Assembly: GCA_020629835.1 (NCBI GenBank)
Contig: JAHDCO010000015.1
Coordinates: 1-64,000 of the forward strand
Length of the DNA: 64,000 nucleotides
Direction of reading: 5' to 3'
Source of the DNA: Granulosicoccaceae bacterium
GTDB lineage: Bacteria > Pseudomonadota > Gammaproteobacteria > Granulosicoccales > Granulosicoccaceae
Numbering within the stretch: the stretch's first letter is position 1; each line of letters begins with the position of its first letter. The notes under the pieces are model-generated. The model did no database searches. It was not told the DNA's origin and saw only the letters and a program-made list of their open reading frames with translations. Below, piece by piece: positions 25,609 through 36,526 of the stretch. The position numbers and the translations under genes are program-made.

Positions 25609-26379
25609 ATGCGTCGATTTTTCTTAGCCTTTGGAATTCTTCTACTGTTGTTTGTGGCACCGGTAGGCATTCAATGGGCGCTGCATATGCAGGCTGAACC
25701 TACGGCCTGGTGGACGATGCGACGCGACAGCAGCGAGCAGGCACCACCGGCAAACCAGCCAGGCGCCGTGATTCAGGTATACGCTGCCCGGGCAGCCCGA
25801 TGGCGAGGAAATCTGGGCGTACACAGTTGGGTGACGTACAAACGCTCCGACGCCGCTTACTACGAACGCTTAGAAGTCATTGGTTATTACGGTGCATACG
25901 GCGGCAACACCGTAAGACAACGACGCGGCAACCCTGACAGTTACTGGTTTGGAAACCGACCTCAGTTACTTCGGCAAATCACCGGTGGTGCGCACGTTGA
26001 TCAGATGATTGATCGCCTGGAAGCAGCGGCCGATGCGTACCCGTACAACACGCAATACAAGGTTTGGCCCGGCCCCAACAGCAACACCTTTGTTGCCTGG
26101 CTGGCGAAGGCCGTGCCGGAGCTGCGCCTGGAATTGCCCCCACTGGCGATCGGTAAAGACTATCTGCCTGATAACGCGTTTGCAGCCAGAACGCCCAGTC
26201 ATCGCGGTGTGCAAGTGTCTTTAGGCGGCTACGCAGGCTTACTGATCGGTTTAGAGGAAGGCATTGAAATCAACCTGCTGGCGGCAACAGTGGGCGTGGA
26301 TGTCTGGCCGCCTGCGTTTAAATTGCCAGGCCTGGGTCGATTGGGCGTGGACGATTTGAAGGAGTTTCATTTCCCTTAA
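25609..26379 (+). CDS. DUF3750 family protein, membrane-anchored
   Basis: A 256-residue protein with an N-terminal hydrophobic segment (about 4-22, possibly an uncleaved anchor) and a periplasmic domain. The DUF3750 signature is clear: IQVYAARAARWRGNLGVHSW near the start, YERLEVIGYY, the YPYNTQYKVWPGPNSNTF block, and ELPPLAIGKDYLPD. The PGPNSNTF motif and conserved histidine suggest an enzyme-like pocket, but the family has no known function. It diverges from the SDR gene and precedes the TetR promoter region. The start at 25609 is the first ATG, and the hydrophobic segment follows directly. Confidence 0.85.
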   Translation: MRRFFLAFGILLLLFVAPVGIQWALHMQAEPTAWWTMRRDSSEQAPPANQPGAVIQVYAARAARWRGNLGVHSWVTYKRSDAAYYERLEVIGYYGAYGGNTVRQRRGNPDSYWFGNRPQLLRQITGGAHVDQMIDRLEAAADAYPYNTQYKVWPGPNSNTFVAWLAKAVPELRLELPPLAIGKDYLPDNAFAARTPSHRGVQVSLGGYAGLLIGLEEGIEINLLAATVGVDVWPPAFKLPGLGRLGVDDLKEFHFP

Positions 26380-26400
26380 CTGGTGAAGTGCGTTCACATT

Positions 26401-26467
26401 TGACGTTCCGTCATTTTTTGACGATCAGGTTGTCATTTTTTGACGAGTTGTCTATTCTCGGTATAAA
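26401..26467 (+). promoter_or_regulatory. Operator/promoter of the TetR-MMPL operon
   Basis: Three related palindromes occur: TGACG-TTC-CGTCA (26401-26413), CGTCA-TTTTT-TGACG (26409-26423), and a second copy GTCATTTTTTGACGA (26432-26446) 22 bases after the matching part of the first. The last one covers a -35 TTGACG (26440-26445), which is 16 bases from a -10 TATAAA (26462-26467). The ATG of the TetR gene follows 18 bases later. This is the geometry expected for autorepression by a dimeric TetR protein; the binding itself is inferred. Confidence 0.75.
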
Positions 26468-26485
26468 AGTGGAACAACCCACGGT

Positions 26486-27235
26486 ATGCCGACAAATTCC
26501 ATGGCGCCTCTGTCCCGAAAACAACGTGAAATAGCCGAACGGCATACGCATTTTTTGAGTATTGCGCGCACGCTATTGCATGAGGAGGGATTCCACCAAT
26601 TATCGATGGATCGTGTCGCTGAACTGGCGGAGTACTCTAAAGGTACGGTCTATCAGCACTTTCCTTGCAAAGAAGAAATGCTGGGGCAGCTTTGCATCAG
26701 CGCGATGCAACGCATGCTGGCTTTGGGCCGGCGGGCCCTAGTGCATCAGGGTTCACATCGGGAACGCTTAATGGCGTTTTTTATTGCACACGATGTATTC
26801 CAAAAGTTGGAATTTAACGATGTGCTCATGATGCAGAACTTCCATACCGATCAGGTATTGGAGAAGCTGTCCCCTATTACGCGCCAACGCCACGATGAAT
26901 TAGAGGGCGCTATTTTTGGCGCGGTGAAATCCATCGTTGAAGACGCTATGGACGCAGGCGATCTGCCTCGTCAACAGGCTTCAGCCAGCGACATTGTGTT
27001 TGGTCTTTGGTCTCTGACCCATGGCGCAGAATCACTGCGCTCCTGCAACCTGCCGTTTGCCGAACTTGGCGTTGAAGATACCACCATGGCCGTGGTTTTA
27101 ATGCTGGAAAAACTGCTCGACGGCTTGGGTTGGAAACCCATGTCGGATTCGTGCTGCAGTTTTGAAAAGATTCAAGAATTGAAATCCGTCTTGTTTAAAG
27201 AAGAGTTATCTGCAGCACAGCAACTGCAGCCGTAA
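26486..27235 (+). CDS. TetR/AcrR-family transcriptional regulator
   Basis: A 249-residue repressor-type protein. The N-terminal helix-turn-helix at about 30-65 reads FHQLSMDRVAELAEYSKGTVYQHFPCKEEML, a textbook TetR recognition motif. The rest is a helical ligand-binding domain with no assigned ligand. The long C-terminal tail includes two adjacent cysteines (DSCCSF), which could be a redox or metal site but is not known as such. It is the first gene of a four-gene operon (29-base gap to the MMPL gene) and follows palindromic operators that overlap its promoter, so autoregulation is likely. Ligands of related regulators are often lipophilic. Confidence 0.93.
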   Translation: MPTNSMAPLSRKQREIAERHTHFLSIARTLLHEEGFHQLSMDRVAELAEYSKGTVYQHFPCKEEMLGQLCISAMQRMLALGRRALVHQGSHRERLMAFFIAHDVFQKLEFNDVLMMQNFHTDQVLEKLSPITRQRHDELEGAIFGAVKSIVEDAMDAGDLPRQQASASDIVFGLWSLTHGAESLRSCNLPFAELGVEDTTMAVVLMLEKLLDGLGWKPMSDSCCSFEKIQELKSVLFKEELSAAQQLQP

Positions 27236-27264
27236 CAACACTCAAACTACTTTAGAGGTAACCC

Positions 27265-29694
27265 ATGTCCACTATCACCACCGACGAACCAGTCAAACCG
27301 TCGTTGATTGAGCGGTACGGTCAATGGTTGGTTAACCACCCTGTTCTGATTCTTATCGCCAGTGTACTAATCACCCTGGGTTTAGCCTCTGGTGGAAAAA
27401 ACTTAAGCTTCACTAACGATTACCGTGTGTTCTTCAGTGATCAAAACCCGCAATTACTGGCGTTTGAGGAGTTACAGGCGGCCTACACAAAATCTGACAA
27501 CATACTCATCATGCTGGAACCCAGCGATGGCGACGTGTTTTCTGAACAAACACTGCAGGCGGTTTCAGACTTAACCACGCGCGCCTGGCAGGTCCCGTTT
27601 TCGGTACGAGTGGATTCGTTGACCAACTACCAGAACATGGTGGCCGAGGAAGACGATCTGATTGTCAGTGATCTGGTTGAAGACCCAACCAATTTAAGCG
27701 CCGAGGATATTACCTACATTCGAGAGACTGCTCTTGCGCAACCAACGTTAGTTAAAAAGTTGGTATCCCCGGATGGTTCAGTCACAGGCGTTAACATAAC
27801 CATGGAAATGCCCGGTGAGCTCAGTGATGAAGATAGGCTGTTACCCAAGGAAGAACGCGATTTAAAAGATCCACAGATCGCACTGCAATTAGCTGTTGAA
27901 GACGCTCGCATCATGATTGCCGATATTGAGGCAAGTTATCCTGAAATCAAATTCAGCAGCACTGGCCTCGTCATGATGAATCAGGCGTTTCCAGAAGCCA
28001 CGATAAAGGATATGTCCACGATTATCCCCATGGCTTTTGGCGTCATCATCGTGGGTATATTAATTTTGATCGCCAGTCCAACTTCGATGGTTGCCACCGT
28101 ATTGGTTGTTCTTATGTCTATCATGGCCGCGATGGGAACCGCCGGTTGGATGGGCTACAAACTCACACCGCCATCGGCGTCGGCGCCCACACTTATATTG
28201 ACATTGGCGGTCGCTGATTGCGTTCACTTCCTGGTAACGCTGTATCACAACTTACGCGCAGGTGTTGCTAAAAAAGACGCGGTGGTAGAAAGCTTACGCA
28301 TCAATGCCATGCCAATTTTCTTAACCTCCGTTACCACAGCCATCGGCTTTCTCAGTATGAACGCCAGTGATGCACCTCCGTTCCGGGATCTGGGCAACAT
28401 CACAGCCATCGGTGTGTTGTTCGCGTTCTTTCTGTCTATGACGTTTCTGCCTGCCTTCACCACGCTGTTTGCAAAAGCCGGTAAGGCAAAAGTCACCCGA
28501 GGCTCGAAAGTAATGGATGGCTTTGCCAGTTTTGTTATTAAACAACGCAAAGCGTTATTCGTGGTTATGGGTGTGATCATGGTGTCTCTGGCGGCACTGG
28601 CACCAAAGAACGAATTGAATGATGTGTTCGTTGAGTACTTTGATGAAACGGTGCCGTTTCGTGTAGAGACCGATCGCATTACCGAAAATCTCTCTGGGCT
28701 GTACTTAGTGGATTACTCGATTGATTCCGGCGAAGAAGGTGGCGTTAGTAATCCTGAGTTTTTGGCCAAAGTTGAGCAATTTGAACGCTATCTGGAGGCT
28801 CGCCCAGAAGTTCAACACGTTAGCGCAATAACCGAAACGGTTCGTCGATTGAACCGCAGCATGCACGGTGATGATCCAACGTACTACCGACTGCCAGAAT
28901 CGCGTGAGCTCAGTGCGCAGTATCTGTTGCTGTATGAGATGTCTCTGCCCTACGGCTTGGATTTAAACAACCAAATTAACTTTGATAAATCCACCACCCG
29001 CATGTCGGTAACACTGGAAACCTTATCTACCGTAGACATGCTGGCGTTCGAAGATGAAGTTAAAACGTGGATGGACGAAAATACACCATCCATTTCAACA
29101 CTTGGAACAGGTCCTACCGCTATGTTCTCGCACATCGGTATGAGAAACATCATCAGCATGTTGTCGGGCACCTCAATCGCGTTAGTACTGATATCACTCA
29201 TTCTTGTATTCGCTTTGCGTTCGGTGAAGTTTGGACTGCTGAGCCTGATCCCCAACCTGGCACCCGCATTGATGTCGTTTGGACTGTGGGCCCTATTGGT
29301 GGGTCAGGTGGGTCTTGCAGTTTCCGTGGTGGTGGCGATGACACTCGGCATCGTGGTGGACGACACCATTCACTTTTTGAGTAAGTATCTACGAGCACGA
29401 CGCGAGAAAAACATGAATTCTGAAGAAGCGGTGCGTTACGCATTCAATACCGTAGGTGTTGCACTGTTTGTGACTACGGTCGTACTCGTAGGCGGTTTCC
29501 TGGTTATTGCACAGTCAAACTTTTTGGTTAATTCTGAAATGGGCTTACTCACCGCTATCACGATTGCTGTGGCACTGATCGTTGACTTCTTGTTCCTCCC
29601 GCCCCTGTTGATGTTTATTGACGGCGACAAGAAAGAAAAAACCGATAGCGTTTCCGTTCCTCCGACCGCACAACCAACCGGTGGTGCAGCCTAG
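27265..29694 (+). CDS. MMPL/RND-family transporter
   Basis: An 809-residue RND-superfamily inner-membrane protein. TM1 (about 28-45) is followed by a periplasmic loop (about 50-245), five helices (about 250-425), a second hydrophobic helix starting near 432, a second periplasmic loop, and a final bundle (about 640-790). The conserved TM4-type motif LTLAVADCVHFLVTLYH and its second-half equivalent MTLGIVVDDTIHFLSKY carry the proton-relay aspartates. MMPL proteins move lipids or lipophilic molecules using the proton gradient. An AGAGGT ribosome site precedes the ATG. Together with a LolA-like periplasmic protein and a barrel, it suggests a trans-envelope path. Confidence 0.92.
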   Translation: MSTITTDEPVKPSLIERYGQWLVNHPVLILIASVLITLGLASGGKNLSFTNDYRVFFSDQNPQLLAFEELQAAYTKSDNILIMLEPSDGDVFSEQTLQAVSDLTTRAWQVPFSVRVDSLTNYQNMVAEEDDLIVSDLVEDPTNLSAEDITYIRETALAQPTLVKKLVSPDGSVTGVNITMEMPGELSDEDRLLPKEERDLKDPQIALQLAVEDARIMIADIEASYPEIKFSSTGLVMMNQAFPEATIKDMSTIIPMAFGVIIVGILILIASPTSMVATVLVVLMSIMAAMGTAGWMGYKLTPPSASAPTLILTLAVADCVHFLVTLYHNLRAGVAKKDAVVESLRINAMPIFLTSVTTAIGFLSMNASDAPPFRDLGNITAIGVLFAFFLSMTFLPAFTTLFAKAGKAKVTRGSKVMDGFASFVIKQRKALFVVMGVIMVSLAALAPKNELNDVFVEYFDETVPFRVETDRITENLSGLYLVDYSIDSGEEGGVSNPEFLAKVEQFERYLEARPEVQHVSAITETVRRLNRSMHGDDPTYYRLPESRELSAQYLLLYEMSLPYGLDLNNQINFDKSTTRMSVTLETLSTVDMLAFEDEVKTWMDENTPSISTLGTGPTAMFSHIGMRNIISMLSGTSIALVLISLILVFALRSVKFGLLSLIPNLAPALMSFGLWALLVGQVGLAVSVVVAMTLGIVVDDTIHFLSKYLRARREKNMNSEEAVRYAFNTVGVALFVTTVVLVGGFLVIAQSNFLVNSEMGLLTAITIAVALIVDFLFLPPLLMFIDGDKKEKTDSVSVPPTAQPTGGAA

Positions 29695-29723
29695 CTCTCA
29701 TCGCCACGGAATAGCTTAGTGAC

Positions 29724-29744
29724 CTGGCCACAGACGGTGGCCAG
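29724..29744. repeat. Hairpin between the MMPL and LolA-like genes
   Basis: CTGGCCAC (29724-29731) pairs perfectly with GTGGCCAG (29737-29744) around a 5-base loop. It lies in a 117-base gap inside the operon, with no T-run after it. It could lower downstream expression or mark an RNA-processing point; the sequence does not say which. Confidence 0.5.
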
Positions 29745-29811
29745 TGATCGACCCACTAACAGTATCTACGTTATTCAATCATTTAAATTTATAACTTGGA
29801 TGTACACAATC

Positions 29812-30642
29812 ATGCACAAACATACGAATCGATCGGTTAAACCTGCAGGCTTTAGCGCAGGAATCCTGTTTACAGCAGCCGTTACCTGCCTGAGTTGGGT
29901 GGGCCCTGCGCAGGCAGATGAAGCCGCTAAGCAACGAGGGCTGGAAATCGCAACCGCGGTACAAGCCCAGGACGATGGCTTTGGCGACAGTGAATCCGCC
30001 ATGACCATGACGCTGATTAATAGAGCAGGCAAAGAAAGCATTCGTCAAATGCGATCAAAGATTCTGGAAGTCACTGATGCGGGCGATAAAAGCTTATCCA
30101 TCTTTGATGAACCAGCGGATGTGAAAGGTACAGCCAGCTTGACTCACTCACACGCGACCGAACCGGATGAGCAGTGGTTATATCTGCCCGCGCTTAAGCG
30201 AGTTAAGCGGATCTCTTCAAAGAACAAATCAGGCCCGTTCATGGGGAGCGAATTCGCCTTTGAAGATATCAGTTCTCAGGAAGTGGAAAAGTACGATTAC
30301 ACCTACTTAGGTGATGAAGAAGTTGACGGTATTGCCGTGCATAAAGTAGAAGCGGTACCGACGTATGAACACTCAGGCTATACGCGCTTGATCAACTACA
30401 TCGACACCGACCGCATGGTACCTGTGAAAGTGGAGTACTTTGACCGTAAGAATTCACCGCTGAAGACACTCAGCATTTCAGAATACGAGCAGCACTTAGG
30501 CAAATTCTGGCGCGCTGGAAAAATGGAGATGGAAAACCTGCAGACCGGCAAACGCACCATCCTGACCTGGTCTGACTATAAATTCCAAACCGGACTGACA
30601 GACAAAGATTTCAACAGTAAGTCATTAAAACGTCTTCGCTAG
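29812..30642 (+). CDS. LolA-like outer-membrane lipoprotein-sorting protein
   Basis: A 276-residue exported protein. A signal peptide (AGILFTAAVTCLSWVGPAQA) is followed by a LolA-like fold. Family landmarks are DDGFGDSESAMTMTLINRAGK, SIFDEPADVKGTASLTHSH, WLYLPALKRVKRISSKNKSG, the FMGSEFAFEDIS block, and the C-terminal LTDKDFNSKSLKRLR. This subgroup is commonly encoded next to MMPL/RND exporters rather than with lolB, and is thought to shuttle a hydrophobic molecule through the periplasm. The ATG at 29812 puts the signal peptide in the usual place; 29800 is the alternative. Its stop is 8 bases from the next start. Confidence 0.9.
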   Translation: MHKHTNRSVKPAGFSAGILFTAAVTCLSWVGPAQADEAAKQRGLEIATAVQAQDDGFGDSESAMTMTLINRAGKESIRQMRSKILEVTDAGDKSLSIFDEPADVKGTASLTHSHATEPDEQWLYLPALKRVKRISSKNKSGPFMGSEFAFEDISSQEVEKYDYTYLGDEEVDGIAVHKVEAVPTYEHSGYTRLINYIDTDRMVPVKVEYFDRKNSPLKTLSISEYEQHLGKFWRAGKMEMENLQTGKRTILTWSDYKFQTGLTDKDFNSKSLKRLR

Positions 30643-30650
30643 GGGTTGTT

Positions 30651-31853
30651 ATGCGCGCTTTTGTTACGAGCAACAGGTTGGCGATCGCCAGCCTGTTGGT
30701 CAGCCTTTGCTATACGCCATCAGTTTTTGCCCAGTGGGATGTGCGCGGGAACGTTAGCACCGAAGTTTTAGTATTCCCTCATACAGCCAGTCACAGTGCA
30801 AATCAAAAAAGCTCGGTCTCACTGTCATCAGAAATCGAGCTCTACACCGATATCGGCGATGCGGGCAGCCTGACGATTACCCCATTTGTTCGTGTGGATC
30901 GGCACGATCCTGAGCGCTCGTACCTTGACTTTCGTGAGTTCATTTACACGCACGTGGGAGATACCTGGGAAGCGCGCGTAGGCTTGGGCAAAGTGTTTTT
31001 TGGTGTAGCAGAATCTGCCAATCTGGTGGATTTCATCAATCAAACTGACTCTGTCGAAGGCTTTAGTACCGATGCCAAACGCGGTCAGCCCATGATCAAT
31101 CTGCTGCTCACTCGCGATTGGGGTGATATTGATTTATACATCCTGCCAGGTTTTCGCGAACAGACCTTCCCCAGTGAGTTTGGCCGACCAAGAATTCCCG
31201 TGCCGATTAACACCGATGGCACTCGATACGAAAGCGACGATAGGAGCAACGCAGTCGATTTTGCAGCTCGCGTATCCACGATTGTTGGTGACTGGGATTT
31301 AGGCGCACATGTTTTCGAAGGCACCACGCGAGAAGCGGAATTGCAATTTGATCCAACGCTCGGCGCGTTGGTACCCTTTTACTCACGCACGACACAAGTG
31401 GGGCTGGATGCGCAAGCCACTCTGGAGAGCTGGTTACTCAAAGCGGAAGTCGTACATCGCAGTGGGCAGGCGTTTACTGACCACATCGCCCTGGTCACAG
31501 GATTTGAATACAGCTTCTACGACATCCAGGGCACGGGCGCCGATTTAGGTATTGTGGCTGAATACCTTATGGACGATCGCGGTAAAGACGGACCGGCACT
31601 GCTGCAAAACGATGCGTTAATTGGATTACGCTTCGCGTTAAACGATGTAAATTCCTCAGAGGCCTTACTGGGCGTTATTACCGATCTGGACGGAGATGGC
31701 AATCTGCTGAGCCTGTCGGCCAGCCGGCGCATTGGGAACAGCGTAAAAGCCACCGTCGAATACACCGGTTGGTCAACAGACAAGGCGTCATCGTCGTTGT
31801 TAGCGCTGGACAGAGAAGACAACGTACGCGTAGAACTCAGCTACTTCTTCTAA
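30651..31853 (+). CDS. Putative outer-membrane beta-barrel protein of the MMPL operon
   Basis: A 400-residue exported protein with signal peptide (AIASLLVSLCYTPSVFAQ). The mature part is rich in amphipathic strands, e.g. GSLTITPFVRVDRHD, WEARVGLGKVFFGVAES, DIDLYILPGFREQTF, and ends in VRVELSYFF, whose terminal Phe is the outer-membrane assembly signal. I recognise no family name with confidence. Its place after MMPL and LolA-like genes, with an AGGGG ribosome site 8 bases after the previous stop, suggests it is the outer-membrane end of that export route. The strand count and pore are not determined. Confidence 0.75.
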   Translation: MRAFVTSNRLAIASLLVSLCYTPSVFAQWDVRGNVSTEVLVFPHTASHSANQKSSVSLSSEIELYTDIGDAGSLTITPFVRVDRHDPERSYLDFREFIYTHVGDTWEARVGLGKVFFGVAESANLVDFINQTDSVEGFSTDAKRGQPMINLLLTRDWGDIDLYILPGFREQTFPSEFGRPRIPVPINTDGTRYESDDRSNAVDFAARVSTIVGDWDLGAHVFEGTTREAELQFDPTLGALVPFYSRTTQVGLDAQATLESWLLKAEVVHRSGQAFTDHIALVTGFEYSFYDIQGTGADLGIVAEYLMDDRGKDGPALLQNDALIGLRFALNDVNSSEALLGVITDLDGDGNLLSLSASRRIGNSVKATVEYTGWSTDKASSSLLALDREDNVRVELSYFF

Positions 31854-31972: not shown

Positions 31973-32136
31973 CATCACAAATACCCCATGCCTGTCTTAT
32001 GCGGCCGCGAACTGTGATCACGTTCTTCTTAACTTCACGAACAGCTATCATCATAGAGCAACAACTATTCGATACAGTCCCGGCATAACTCAAGAGCTTC
32101 TCTCCTATGCATCTAGTGGGTGTTTCAATTTCCACC

Positions 32137-34125
32137 ATGCCCCAGCTTAGAACGCTGGTGTTGTGCCTAAGCATGACTACGGCATTGACCGCCTGCAGTG
32201 GATCGAGCAGTGGCGGAGGTGACGGCGTTACTAACGCAGGCGACTCCAATCAGCCGACCACCGACCCGGTTAACCCTGATGCACCCGACGTCAACCCAGG
32301 AGATGAGCCCACGGCGGGGCCGCCTGTTAATCCCAATCCAGAGCCGCCGGCGGCGTTGGCGCCGTTACCCAACCCCGCTACCTCCGAAAGCCCGGGTTTT
32401 GATGACGAACCGAGCAACATTAATCGCCCGGTTACCGCCATTACGCGTTATTTTTTGGTTGAAAACCCCGCTCGCCGAATTGAGCCGCAGCCGACTTTGG
32501 GTATCACAGAAACCGACTTTGCCACCGGTATGCCACCGGCCGTTATAACGGCAGAGAACGGATTCGACACCAGCACCAATTCCGCTCCGTACTTTGACGG
32601 TTTAACCAATCAGGAAATTGATGCGGGCCAGGTACTTAATGTGCTGTACAAACCTGTGGATGACGACGGCGGTTTACCAGGCATGTTTCCAAATGAACTG
32701 CCCGAAAGCGCTACGTTCACCGATAACTTTGATGGTACAAAAACCTTTTCATGGATGCCGCTGCAAGGCGATATCGGGATCACGCCATTCACAGTGACTG
32801 CTGTGGACGGCGATGTCCCATCTTACCGAGCAGAGCAAACCATATTAATCAAGGTTAACGCTCCTGCAGACCCGTCCACCATTCCTAACTTCCCACCGGT
32901 GGTAAACGAAGTGCGCGAGCACACGGTTCGTGTGGGTGACCCGGTGTTACTGGAGCTTAAAGGTTCAGATCGCAACAGCACCTACCCCAGTGTGGAGGTG
33001 TTAACGCCGCCACCGGGTGCCACCGTTCTTCCACACTACATCTTTGAAGAGATCACCGTGCTGCGATTCATACCGGAAACACCCGGAGTAATTAATATTG
33101 ACGTATTGGCTCGCGATGCCGATGATCCCAACCTTACTGGCACACGCACAATCTCTGTAACCGCTGAACCCAAAGAAGCCTTCGCCCTGCCCGGCGAGCG
33201 CTTACGTGCCTTAGCCGGTGAGCGCGGGTTTCGGCTTGGTTTTGCCGCTGTACAAGAATTTTACTACCGACCCGACGGTGCATTGTATTCAGACTTAGCC
33301 GGCCTGGAGTTCAATATTGTCAGTGCAGAGAACTCCATGAAATGGGATTACATTAACCCAGAACCCGGCACCTTTCGCTGGGCTGATGCTGACAACTTGA
33401 TTGCGTTTGCCAAACACTACAACCATATTGTGCATGGTCATCCGATGATTTGGCATCGGCAATTACCCATCTGGATTCGTGAAGCGCCTGAAGCCTCGTT
33501 GGAAATGCACATGCGAGAGTTCATCGACCGCCTGGCCGTTCGTTACGGAGACGATGTTGCCATCTGGGATGTGATCAATGAACCGATTGCAGACGAAGGC
33601 GGTTTTCGCCGCTCGATCTGGTACAACGCAATGGGTGAAGATTACATCGATATTGCCTTTCGTCAGGCACGAGACAGCGACCCTGACGGCATACTGCTGC
33701 TAAATGAATACGATATTGCCTGGGATACACCAAAAACCGAAACACTGTTCCCGCTGTTGGATTCACTATTACTAAAAAGCACACCCATCGATGGCGTAGG
33801 CTTTCAGCTTCATATCGATGCGAACTTCGATAAATTCGATGAAGTTGAGGCTAACTTTCAAAAAGTGGCCGATCTAGGCTTGGACATCTACGTAACTGAA
33901 TTAGACGTTGCCATTACCGCAGGTGTTGCTACAGAAGAAGATCAAGCAACAGTCTATGCACGAATACTGGACATTTGTTTGAACCAGCCTCGTTGTAAAG
34001 CCTTACAGATCTGGGGATTCACGGATCAGTATTCATGGCGACGCGATCAGAACCCTCTGGTTTTTGATAGCGCGTACAAGCCAAAGCCTGCCTATTTTGC
34101 TTTACAGGAACGGCTTGCTCAGTGA
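32137..34125 (+). CDS. GH10 endo-1,4-beta-xylanase lipoprotein
   Basis: A 662-residue lipoprotein with lipobox LTAC (acylated Cys about 20), so surface or outer-membrane anchored. A Gly/Ser then Pro/Asp/Asn-rich linker (about 21-90) is followed by a non-assigned segment, two Ig/cadherin-like domains (about 150-345) and a GH10 domain (about 350-662). The acid/base is Glu482 in WDVINEPIAD and the nucleophile Glu588 in VTELDVAI. The two Ig-like domains and the junction ALPGERLR match the other GH10 protein at 19-22 kb, so the pair shares a common core. An ATG at 32107 would add 10 residues. It faces the same direction as the CBM9 lipoprotein downstream. Confidence 0.94.
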   Translation: MPQLRTLVLCLSMTTALTACSGSSSGGGDGVTNAGDSNQPTTDPVNPDAPDVNPGDEPTAGPPVNPNPEPPAALAPLPNPATSESPGFDDEPSNINRPVTAITRYFLVENPARRIEPQPTLGITETDFATGMPPAVITAENGFDTSTNSAPYFDGLTNQEIDAGQVLNVLYKPVDDDGGLPGMFPNELPESATFTDNFDGTKTFSWMPLQGDIGITPFTVTAVDGDVPSYRAEQTILIKVNAPADPSTIPNFPPVVNEVREHTVRVGDPVLLELKGSDRNSTYPSVEVLTPPPGATVLPHYIFEEITVLRFIPETPGVINIDVLARDADDPNLTGTRTISVTAEPKEAFALPGERLRALAGERGFRLGFAAVQEFYYRPDGALYSDLAGLEFNIVSAENSMKWDYINPEPGTFRWADADNLIAFAKHYNHIVHGHPMIWHRQLPIWIREAPEASLEMHMREFIDRLAVRYGDDVAIWDVINEPIADEGGFRRSIWYNAMGEDYIDIAFRQARDSDPDGILLLNEYDIAWDTPKTETLFPLLDSLLLKSTPIDGVGFQLHIDANFDKFDEVEANFQKVADLGLDIYVTELDVAITAGVATEEDQATVYARILDICLNQPRCKALQIWGFTDQYSWRRDQNPLVFDSAYKPKPAYFALQERLAQ

Positions 34126-34724: not shown

Positions 34725-34888
34725 AACATACTCACTTTAAAATACAGTACTGATAATCAAATAATTCGCAGCCAATATTACCGATAAAGCTCGGTAGCAT
34801 TGCAACACCAAGCCAGGTGGTTACCCATCACACTTCAATCATCCGCTGACACCGTTACGGTTCAGCAACCACGATGAAGGAACTGTGC

Positions 34889-36526
34889 ATGTACGCTCAC
34901 CCATCCCGTTTAACACCCCTTGCTCTGGCTCTAGCCTCACTGATGAGCATCACCGCCTGTTCATCCGGAGAAAGTAACAGCACCCCAAGACTGGATGACC
35001 CGGCAATCACGCCCACGTCCGCTGTACGGTTAACGGTTGAACTGCCGCCGCGAATGCAAAACCTTGACGCTACGTTGGAAGTCATCGTCACGGCCGCTGG
35101 CGAGAGCGTGTTAATGAACGGAGCTCAAGACAGCTACAGTGCAGAGCTTAGCCTACCGTCGGACCGAAGTTTCCCTTTATTTGTCCGAGTACAACGTGCC
35201 GATGATGATCTGATCGTGGCGTCTGCCCAGGCAAACATCAGCACAGACACAAGCATCGTGCCATTCACCTTGCCCCCACAGTTATTCAGTACAGACTTTG
35301 ACTCAGACGGTGACGGTTTTACCAATATTGTCGAACTGGAGCGAGGCAGTGAACCGCGTGGTTTAAGCGAAGACTTTGATGGCGATGGTATCGCCAACGA
35401 AACCGACTTAGACGATGACAACGATGGGGTATTTGATGTTAACGACGCGTTTCCATTGAATGGAGCGGAATCGTTGGACAGCGACGGCGACGGCATTGGC
35501 GATAATCAGGACAGAGACGATGACAACGATTTGATTCTGGATGTTGACGATAACTTTCCACTCGATCCCAATGAATCGCTGGATTTGGATTTGGACGGAC
35601 TGGGTAACTCCGTAGACGAAGACGATGATGGCGACGGCACCATAGACCTGGAAGACCCACAACCTAATAACCCCAACATCACTGGTAACGAAGACAGTGA
35701 TGGTGATGGCGTCAGAGATTTAGAAGACGCATTCCCGTATGACCCCGCCGAGAGTAATGACGTTGATGGCGATGGCATTGGCGACAACGCCGATAATGAC
35801 AACGATAACAATGGCATCCCCGATGACCAGGATAATTCAGTGGTCAACATCCCGTTCTCTGCGGTATCACCCACAATAGACGGCGCTTACAGCTGGTGGG
35901 AATGGTCGGCAGCAACCAGTGCCGATAGTCGTGGTAATCGCCTGTATATCGATCATCTGTTAATCGATAACCTTGGCATTGAAGACGATCAATACAATTA
36001 CAACTACAGCCGCTGGCGCGCTTTGCACGACGGTGAATATCTGTACGTGCTGTTCATCATCGATAACGAAAACTTACCCGAACGTTGGAGTGACTCGGTG
36101 AACCCATGGGATGATGATTCGGTAGAGCTGTATTTTGACGTAGGCGCTGAATCAGCAACAACCTATGACAGCAACGACTACCAACGATTGTTCCGTTATC
36201 AGGACGATGCGGATGATAATCAAACCGATGGTTTCTACAGCGCAAGCGGCATGGTGTCCAACTACTGTTCCAGCCGTACCATGGCCAGGCAATGGTCTCA
36301 CTACGCCTACTATGAAGTGCGCGTCTTACTGTCATCCATAGGCTTGCAGGAAGGTGTGCCGTTCAAGATGGACGTGATGTACAACGATGACGACACCGCA
36401 GGTGAACGAGACTCCAAATGGGCCTGGTTTTCACCATCGGGTGTGGACAACGCCTGGCAGAACCCCAGTACCTTCGGGACCGCAATCCTGTCAACCAATC
36501 GCCCGGTTGTTGGTGGTGGGGATTAG
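34889..36526 (+). CDS. CBM9 lipoprotein with thrombospondin type-3 repeats
   Basis: A 545-residue lipoprotein with lipobox SITAC. A first domain of about 120 residues (beta-rich, resembling a carboxypeptidase-regulatory-like fold) comes first. Then at least six calcium-binding thrombospondin type-3 repeats (about 135-325) follow, each of the DSDGDGxxD type and several ending DAFPLDP. A C-terminal CBM9-like module (about 335-545) begins TIDGAYSWWEWSAA. It has WRALHDGEYLYVLFIIDN and DDDSVELYFDVG, which match CBM9. CBM9 modules bind xylan or cellulose ends. No catalytic domain is present. The ATG at 34889 has AAGGA upstream; 34874 is an alternative. Confidence 0.88.
   Translation: MYAHPSRLTPLALALASLMSITACSSGESNSTPRLDDPAITPTSAVRLTVELPPRMQNLDATLEVIVTAAGESVLMNGAQDSYSAELSLPSDRSFPLFVRVQRADDDLIVASAQANISTDTSIVPFTLPPQLFSTDFDSDGDGFTNIVELERGSEPRGLSEDFDGDGIANETDLDDDNDGVFDVNDAFPLNGAESLDSDGDGIGDNQDRDDDNDLILDVDDNFPLDPNESLDLDLDGLGNSVDEDDDGDGTIDLEDPQPNNPNITGNEDSDGDGVRDLEDAFPYDPAESNDVDGDGIGDNADNDNDNNGIPDDQDNSVVNIPFSAVSPTIDGAYSWWEWSAATSADSRGNRLYIDHLLIDNLGIEDDQYNYNYSRWRALHDGEYLYVLFIIDNENLPERWSDSVNPWDDDSVELYFDVGAESATTYDSNDYQRLFRYQDDADDNQTDGFYSASGMVSNYCSSRTMARQWSHYAYYEVRVLLSSIGLQEGVPFKMDVMYNDDDTAGERDSKWAWFSPSGVDNAWQNPSTFGTAILSTNRPVVGGGD

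Follow-up and report, generated by a model that had tools for sequence, protein, structure and literature searches.

A conserved array of half-sites as the probable operator of an adjacent TetR-family regulator and its MMPL/LolA-like export genes

Results

An Ordered Array Precedes a TetR-Family Gene

We have studied an array of short inverted half-sites in a 64,000-nucleotide stretch of DNA (the window) from a Granulosicoccaceae bacterium, whose 4.34-Mb genome is assembled in 149 contigs. The array lies between a DUF3750 gene and a gene encoding a TetR-family regulator, followed in turn by genes for an MMPL transporter and a LolA_like/DUF1329 protein, all on the + strand. The features are as follows.

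25609-26379, + strand: DUF3750 gene, ending 22 bp 5′ of the array
26401-26413, no strand: putative outer operator unit 1, TGACG-TTC-CGTCA (half-sites 26401-26405 and 26409-26413)
26409-26423, no strand: first 15-bp palindrome, CGTCATTTTTTGACG, taken to join unit 1 to the central pair
26419-26435, no strand: central stretched pair, TGACG-N7-TGTCA (half-sites 26419-26423 and 26431-26435)
26431-26445, no strand: second 15-bp palindrome, TGTCATTTTTTGACG, taken to join the central pair to unit 3
26441-26453, no strand: putative outer operator unit 3, TGACG-AGT-TGTCT (half-sites 26441-26445 and 26449-26453)
26430-26458, + strand: probable sigma-70 type promoter, TTGTCA-N17-TATTCT
26486-27235, + strand: TetR-family regulator, 249 aa (Pfam TetR_N), alternative start at 26501
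27265-29694, + strand: MMPL/RND transporter, HAE3-like, 809 aa (Pfam MMPL, 3.3e-32), putative target
29719-30642, + strand: LolA_like/DUF1329 outer-membrane lipoprotein-sorting-type protein (Pfam LolA_like, 5.2e-65), putative operon member
30651-31853, + strand: 400-aa protein directly 3′ of the LolA-like gene, without a Pfam match

The regulator carries an N-terminal helix-turn-helix (PF00440 TetR_N, E 1.1e-12, 48 bits against a cut-off of 24), and a conserved SRKQRE segment precedes its helix 1. When 27 homologues were combined in a profile, it matched structures of the TetR family, with 7w2o scoring best (positions 2-184, E 1.9e-20) and six further entries besides. The predicted structure is all helical but weak, with a mean pLDDT of 63.6 and values below 50 over much of the helix-turn-helix. 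The closest named relative, at 74% identity, comes from an uncultured Granulosicoccaceae bacterium. For the MMPL protein the best NCBIfam match is the HAE3 family, with a score below the family cut-off. The 400-aa protein is a possible outer-membrane partner of the export system, its position suggesting membership of the operon. Close by lie a GH10 glycosyl hydrolase gene (32107-34125) and a gene for a CBM9-bearing protein (34874-36526), which suggest the use of plant or algal polysaccharide.

Between 26401 and 26453 the array comprises six 5-bp half-sites of the form TGACG or its reverse, the final one being TGTCT. Their first bases lie at 26401 (TGACG), 26409 (CGTCA), 26419 (TGACG), 26431 (TGTCA), 26441 (TGACG) and 26449 (TGTCT), so that the start-to-start spacing of 8-10-12-10-8 forms a dyad of 53 bp centred at 26427. 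A sequence-only reading of this DNA had described TGACG-TTC-CGTCA and the two palindromes, and all three stand where it placed them; TGTCATTTTTTGACG differs from CGTCATTTTTTGACG by one mismatch, and the copies are 22 bp apart. It had thus seen five of the six half-sites and missed the last, TGTCT. The array is therefore real and larger than first reported.

The Array Is Conserved Upstream of tetR with Fixed Spacings

TetR relatives were collected from 18 of 48 genomes of the family (E ≤ 1e-20) and 17 of 369 of the class (E ≤ 1e-15), the genome of the window being in both counts. This gave 35 loci including the window, one per match at these cut-offs; matches weaker than E 1e-15 were left out, as was one (L040) confined to the helix-turn-helix. 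The loci divide according to the residue four positions ahead of a conserved Tyr in the recognition helix, which is Lys (26) or Arg (2) in 28 of them and Thr (6) or Ile (1) in the other 7; in the window's regulator it is Lys52.

In the relatives, too, the array lies directly 5′ of tetR. We counted half-site pairs from -150 to +12 relative to the tetR start at the 28 Lys/Arg-type loci. TGAC-N5-GTCA (spacing 8) gave 25 pairs at 22 loci against a shuffle mean of 0.05, GTCA-N5-TGAC (spacing 10, from a reverse to a forward half-site) 29 pairs at 20 loci against 0.07, and TGAC-N9-GTCA (spacing 12) eight pairs at eight loci against 0.06. These are the only spacings below 17 found there, and 24.3 kb of sequence lying further upstream held 0, 0 and 1 pairs, respectively. 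Among larger spacings, 30 occurs at nine loci (8+10+12), 26 at five (8+10+8) and 19 at three (L076, L094 and L097), while 17, 18, 22, 27, 28 and 29 are each seen at one or two. When all 4-mers at a gap of 5 were compared, TGAC came first (22 of the 28 loci) and GTCA second (20); the next reached 2.

The complete 8-10-12-10-8 array is found at nine loci, each in a different genome, all of the window's genus and including the window itself. The nine align without gaps over 65 columns, with pairwise identity of 90% in half-site columns, 64% in the other array columns and 27% in the upstream flank. Eight have an exact central TGAC-N9-GTCA and the ninth (L072) has one mismatch. Elsewhere shorter forms occur, such as 8-10, 10-8 and 8-10-8. 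Facing half-sites are separated by a spacer that is A/T at 138 of 145 positions (29 copies).

The 13-bp unit TGAC-N5-GTCA is exact at 23 of the 28 loci within 170 bp of the start; with at most one mismatch in its eight defined positions it is present at 27, the exception being L071. Five loci (L085, L090, L094, L096 and L097) have it without an exact GTCA-N5-TGAC. The reverse holds at L071, L079 and L081, although a single mismatch is all that separates L079 and L081 from the 13-bp unit. At L086 and L091 both motifs are missing in exact form upstream of tetR. Just 5′ of the tetR homologue at L085 (also L029) we noted by eye a long inverted repeat, with arms of ~22 bp around AAA, that almost reaches the start codon. 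A tetR relative with in-frame stops (L012/L070, G025:C95) still has a degenerate array upstream; in that genome, which is 81% complete, no MMPL match was found at E ≤ 1e-30.

Taken singly, palindromes resembling CGTCAN5TGACG with as many as two mismatches are at background level, with 35 in the window against 34.9 expected; what rules out chance for the array is that relatives conserve it 5′ of tetR. The composite TGACGN3CGTCAN5TGACG matches exactly only at the array in the whole genome, and with up to two mismatches it has 14 matches against nine for a reversed-pattern control. The core GTCATTTTTTGAC has two exact copies in the genome, both within the array, and its matches with up to two mismatches do not exceed those of the control (122 against 159).

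The Array Tracks the TetR Gene and a Probable MMPL Target

A profile built from the sequences of the nine arrays was run on the 48 family genomes, with stricter filters at which some weak matches are lost. At E ≤ 0.005 its matches at tetR covered 16 of 18 orthologue-bearing genomes, nine of which had supplied the model, and none of the 30 genomes lacking the orthologue had a match (best 0.0135). The other two genomes with an orthologue, G034 and G032, gave weak matches (E 0.011 and 2.6).

Away from tetR there were three matches at E ≤ 0.01, with ~0.5 expected: G035:C168 (6e-4), G004:C60 (0.004) and G027:C9 (0.006). Those in G035 and G027, weak in themselves, directly precede MMPL genes, each on a contig other than that of tetR; in tblastn these genes share 69% and 65% identity, respectively, with that of the window. 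Both have TGAC-N5-GTCA followed at a step of 10 by TGAC or CGAC, and a promoter TTGTCA-N17-TAATAT or TAAAAT, i.e., TTGTCA-N17-TAnnnT as in the array. In G027 a LolA-like gene follows tetR with no MMPL gene there, and the MMPL match on the other contig contains one in-frame TGA; in G035 the contig ends just past tetR. The listed array matches do not include the second MMPL gene (42-44% identical) of these two genomes. The G004 match has one exact half-site and lies inside an open reading frame; we take it as a chance occurrence. At the 28 Lys/Arg-type loci an MMPL gene is near tetR in 22 and a LolA-like gene in 23. The putative operator, regulator and target thus track together across genomes. 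The probable targets are not confined to tetR, since the unlinked MMPL promoters point to the MMPL gene as well.

A search of the genome for further sites, suggested earlier as a way to define a regulon, gave no broader regulon. Isolated units of the form TTGACRNNNYGTCA are not above background elsewhere, with nine matches in the window's own genome against seven for the reversed control; over six genomes, isolated 13-bp units numbered 34 against 71 for the reversed pattern, i.e., below the control. The composite, GTCATTTTTTGAC, isolated-unit and profile searches yielded no further convincing target in the own genome. We inspected 14 match places in two genomes, a part of the lists (ten isolated-unit and four GTCATTTTTTGAC matches): eight are inside open reading frames of at least 100 aa and six between them. 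The most striking isolated match, at G000:C38:35966 (L056) before a polyprenyl synthetase gene, was rejected as a target. That promoter region has TGT-N12-ACA, a CrtJ/PpsR-type site, and TTGACATTTTGTCAA palindromes, both typical of carotenoid genes controlled by CrtJ/PpsR.

The Half-Site Follows a Residue of the Regulator

The half-site sequence varies with the same recognition-helix residue that divides the loci, being TGAC with Lys or Arg and TGAA with Thr or Ile. Six of the seven Thr/Ile homologues (not L095) have TGAAN5TTCA, with the same spacing, and none has TTCAN5TGAA. No MMPL or LolA gene was found near any of the seven, several of which lie on short contigs. The sister group of TetR genes with TGAAN5TTCA before them comprises L027, L028, L047, L052, L053 and L054, and also L110, a further Thr case, which has TGAATCGGGTTCA. 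L110 is one of three further loci inspected; at the other two, L120 (Met at the key residue) and the distant L123 (Lys), neither motif was found. The contrast between Lys and Thr largely follows two clades, so that the genomes are not independent in this comparison. In DarR the lysine before the recognition helix, Lys44, is equivalent; it reads a C:G pair, contacting the G opposite a C (PMC10636190).

The Array Overlaps the Predicted tetR Promoter

The sequence-only reading had placed the promoter at TTGACG (26440-26445) and TATAAA (26462-26467), and these hexamers are present with 16 bases between them. The orthologues favor another choice, TTGTCA-N17-TATTCT, which is probably the tetR promoter: TTGTCA-N17 scores best in 15 of the 28 loci, and in the window it scores 10.4 against 8.6 for the earlier choice. 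It is the one sigma-70 type match in 26300-30750, where shuffled sequences average 5.2, and so the match is no evidence alone. The array overlaps this predicted promoter over the -35 box and spacer, and the -10 box begins with the base that ends unit 3 (26453). In eight of the nine full arrays the final half-site ends in T rather than A, and there the T serves as the first -10 base.

In 13 of the 28 loci (L072-L083 and L086) the start codon lies 6-7 bases past the predicted -10 box, which suggests a leaderless tetR mRNA at these loci. They are 12 of the 15 TTGTCA-N17 loci together with L086 (TTGTTA); L096 also has a distance of 6, with a weaker promoter. In the window this distance is 27 or 42 bases, and the leader is also longer in the nearest relatives.

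Discussion

We conclude that the array is very probably the operator of the adjacent TetR-family protein, through which it would repress its own gene cooperatively and control the MMPL/LolA-like export genes. The earlier observation is confirmed and extended, and its interpretation is right in kind, altered as to the unit, the promoter and the target set.

The sequence-only reading took the palindromes as operators of the adjacent TetR, seating several dimers over its promoter. The comparative evidence upholds this, but not the 15-bp palindrome as the dimer unit. The unit is probably the 13-bp TGACRNNNYGTCA, because it is present without the 15-bp palindrome in the five distant homologues named above, and because the sister group has the TGAAN5TTCA form. 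On the 15-bp alternative, CGTCAN5TGACG palindromes would bind two dimers 22 bp apart on one face of the helix. It could draw on the constancy of spacing 10, on the two copies with identical core GTCATTTTTTGAC and on L071, L079 and L081, where the 15-bp core occurs without an exact 13-bp unit, yet it would leave two conserved outer half-sites unpaired and runs against the absence of TTCAN5TGAA from the Thr/Ile group, as well as against the five loci with exact 13-bp units; we regard it as unlikely. The 15-bp palindrome is more likely the fixed gap between neighboring units. With a 13-bp unit the argument from 22 bp and one face does not apply as stated: the units are centered at 26407, 26427 and 26447, and a single TetR-type dimer would need the middle pair to be 4 bp narrower.

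The three remaining alternatives are less probable still. The hairpin TGACG-TTC-CGTCA followed by T6 could be the terminator of the DUF3750 gene, which ends 22 bp upstream, and it is listed as terminator-like, one of five such in a region for which shuffles give 4.2. However, 26396-26425 is predicted to fold (-6.1 kcal/mol) with a different 5-bp stem, at 26409-26423, and the array is kept where DUF3750 is more than 600 bp away (L068) or did not turn up in the sequence retrieved (16 of the 28 loci, some cut by contig ends; it is near tetR in 12). As the array also precedes unlinked MMPL genes, we consider a terminator most improbable. That another regulator might act on the operon through the array is conceivable insofar as the adjacent TetR is a predicted binder of it, but very improbable given that all 30 family genomes without the orthologue lack a match at E ≤ 0.005 and that half-site identity tracks the recognition-helix residue of the adjacent protein. 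There is a similarly slight chance that the regulator activates from the array; while sequence does not tell activation from repression, sites overlapping the -35 box and spacer of a conserved promoter are in the usual position of a repressor.

Returning to the repressor, one dimer would bind each TGACRNNNYGTCA and place a recognition helix on each TGAC word. The SRKQRE segment and the A/T spacers suggest that an N-terminal arm may enter the minor groove, as the arms of DesT and SimR do (PMC6018408). The constant 10-bp step over an A/T-rich spacer would set neighboring units so that the dimers line up and probably cooperate; the rigid spacing is what suggests cooperativity. Several dimers filling the array would cover the -35 box and the -35/-10 spacer, the last half-site touching the -10 box, and so exclude RNA polymerase. 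The filled array would thus repress tetR together with the co-directional HAE3-type RND transporter and LolA-like protein. Binding of a hydrophobic or amphiphilic ligand would release the dimers and lift repression. What the sequences show is the array with its conservation and spacing rules, its occurrence together with the adjacent TetR, its copies at two unlinked MMPL promoters and the pairing of residue with half-site; binding, repression rather than activation, cooperativity and the ligand are what we infer.

The 13-bp unit resembles tetO-type single-dimer operators. Its 3 bp between 5-bp half-sites are equivalent to five bases between 4-bp cores, as in the TetR-like single-dimer class; TetR has five bases between its CTAT half-sites and AmtR six (PMC2723105), and a class with 3 bp is described (PMC6018408). 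The difference is that here six half-sites interlock in a symmetric 53 bp. The EthR operator, of 55 bp, is a case in which several TetR-family dimers fill ~55 bp cooperatively at an autoregulated promoter; its half-site and arrangement differ from those of the array.

The operators of DarR and QacR, which bind a dimer of dimers, also seat more than one dimer on overlapping palindromes, but the outer units of the array are TetR-like, not QacR-like, in spacing. An AmtR site shortened by one base is not bound (PMC2723105), and a single dimer binding as on the outer units should therefore be unable to span the central pair, whose half-sites are 4 bp further apart. Since the pair does not fit one TetR-type dimer, we may speculate that it seats two offset ones. 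By our own arithmetic the half-sites in the DarR operator are 9 bp apart and the dimers offset by 3, placing the outer halves 12 apart, equal to the central spacing here (PMC10636190). At the places of the expected Lys contacts in the central pair, C is kept in eight of nine full arrays and G in all nine. In contrast, the inner half-sites that such a pair of dimers would use are poor, matching 1-3 and 1-2 of four bases in the nine arrays. An operator of mixed mode, with single TetR-type dimers on the outer units and two offset dimers on opposite faces of the central 17-bp pair, is hence a doubtful proposition. If true, it would mean a symmetric wrap of four dimers burying the -35 box, and the use of both known TetR-family binding modes by one regulator on one promoter.

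As to the genes controlled, the TetR-family regulator MAB_4384 of the MmpS5/MmpL5 system acts on its own gene and on an RND exporter of the MmpL type from a single palindromic region, on which two dimers have been proposed; there a 27-bp palindrome lies between divergent genes, whereas the present array is longer and precedes genes that run in one direction (PMC5895659). In the HAE3 exporter AmeABCD, too, an HAE3-type RND protein goes with a periplasmic partner from the LolA superfamily and with an outer-membrane protein; a fourth component sets it apart (PMC6394551). The portion of the FarR account drawn on here has nothing on operators (PMC10019231). Within the literature searched we recognized no account of this TetR/MMPL/LolA operator, which does not prove its absence elsewhere.

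The array is thus an unusually ordered form of a known TetR-family switch. From sequence alone, an uncharacterized gammaproteobacterial TetR/MMPL/LolA-like export operon gains a defined operator, a probable promoter and a probable target set. The relatives provide a natural series of one unit, 8-10, 8-10-8, 8-10-12-10-8 and 8-19-8, with which cooperativity in the TetR family could be tested directly, and the paired change of recognition-helix residue and half-site makes its specificity directly testable in the same way.
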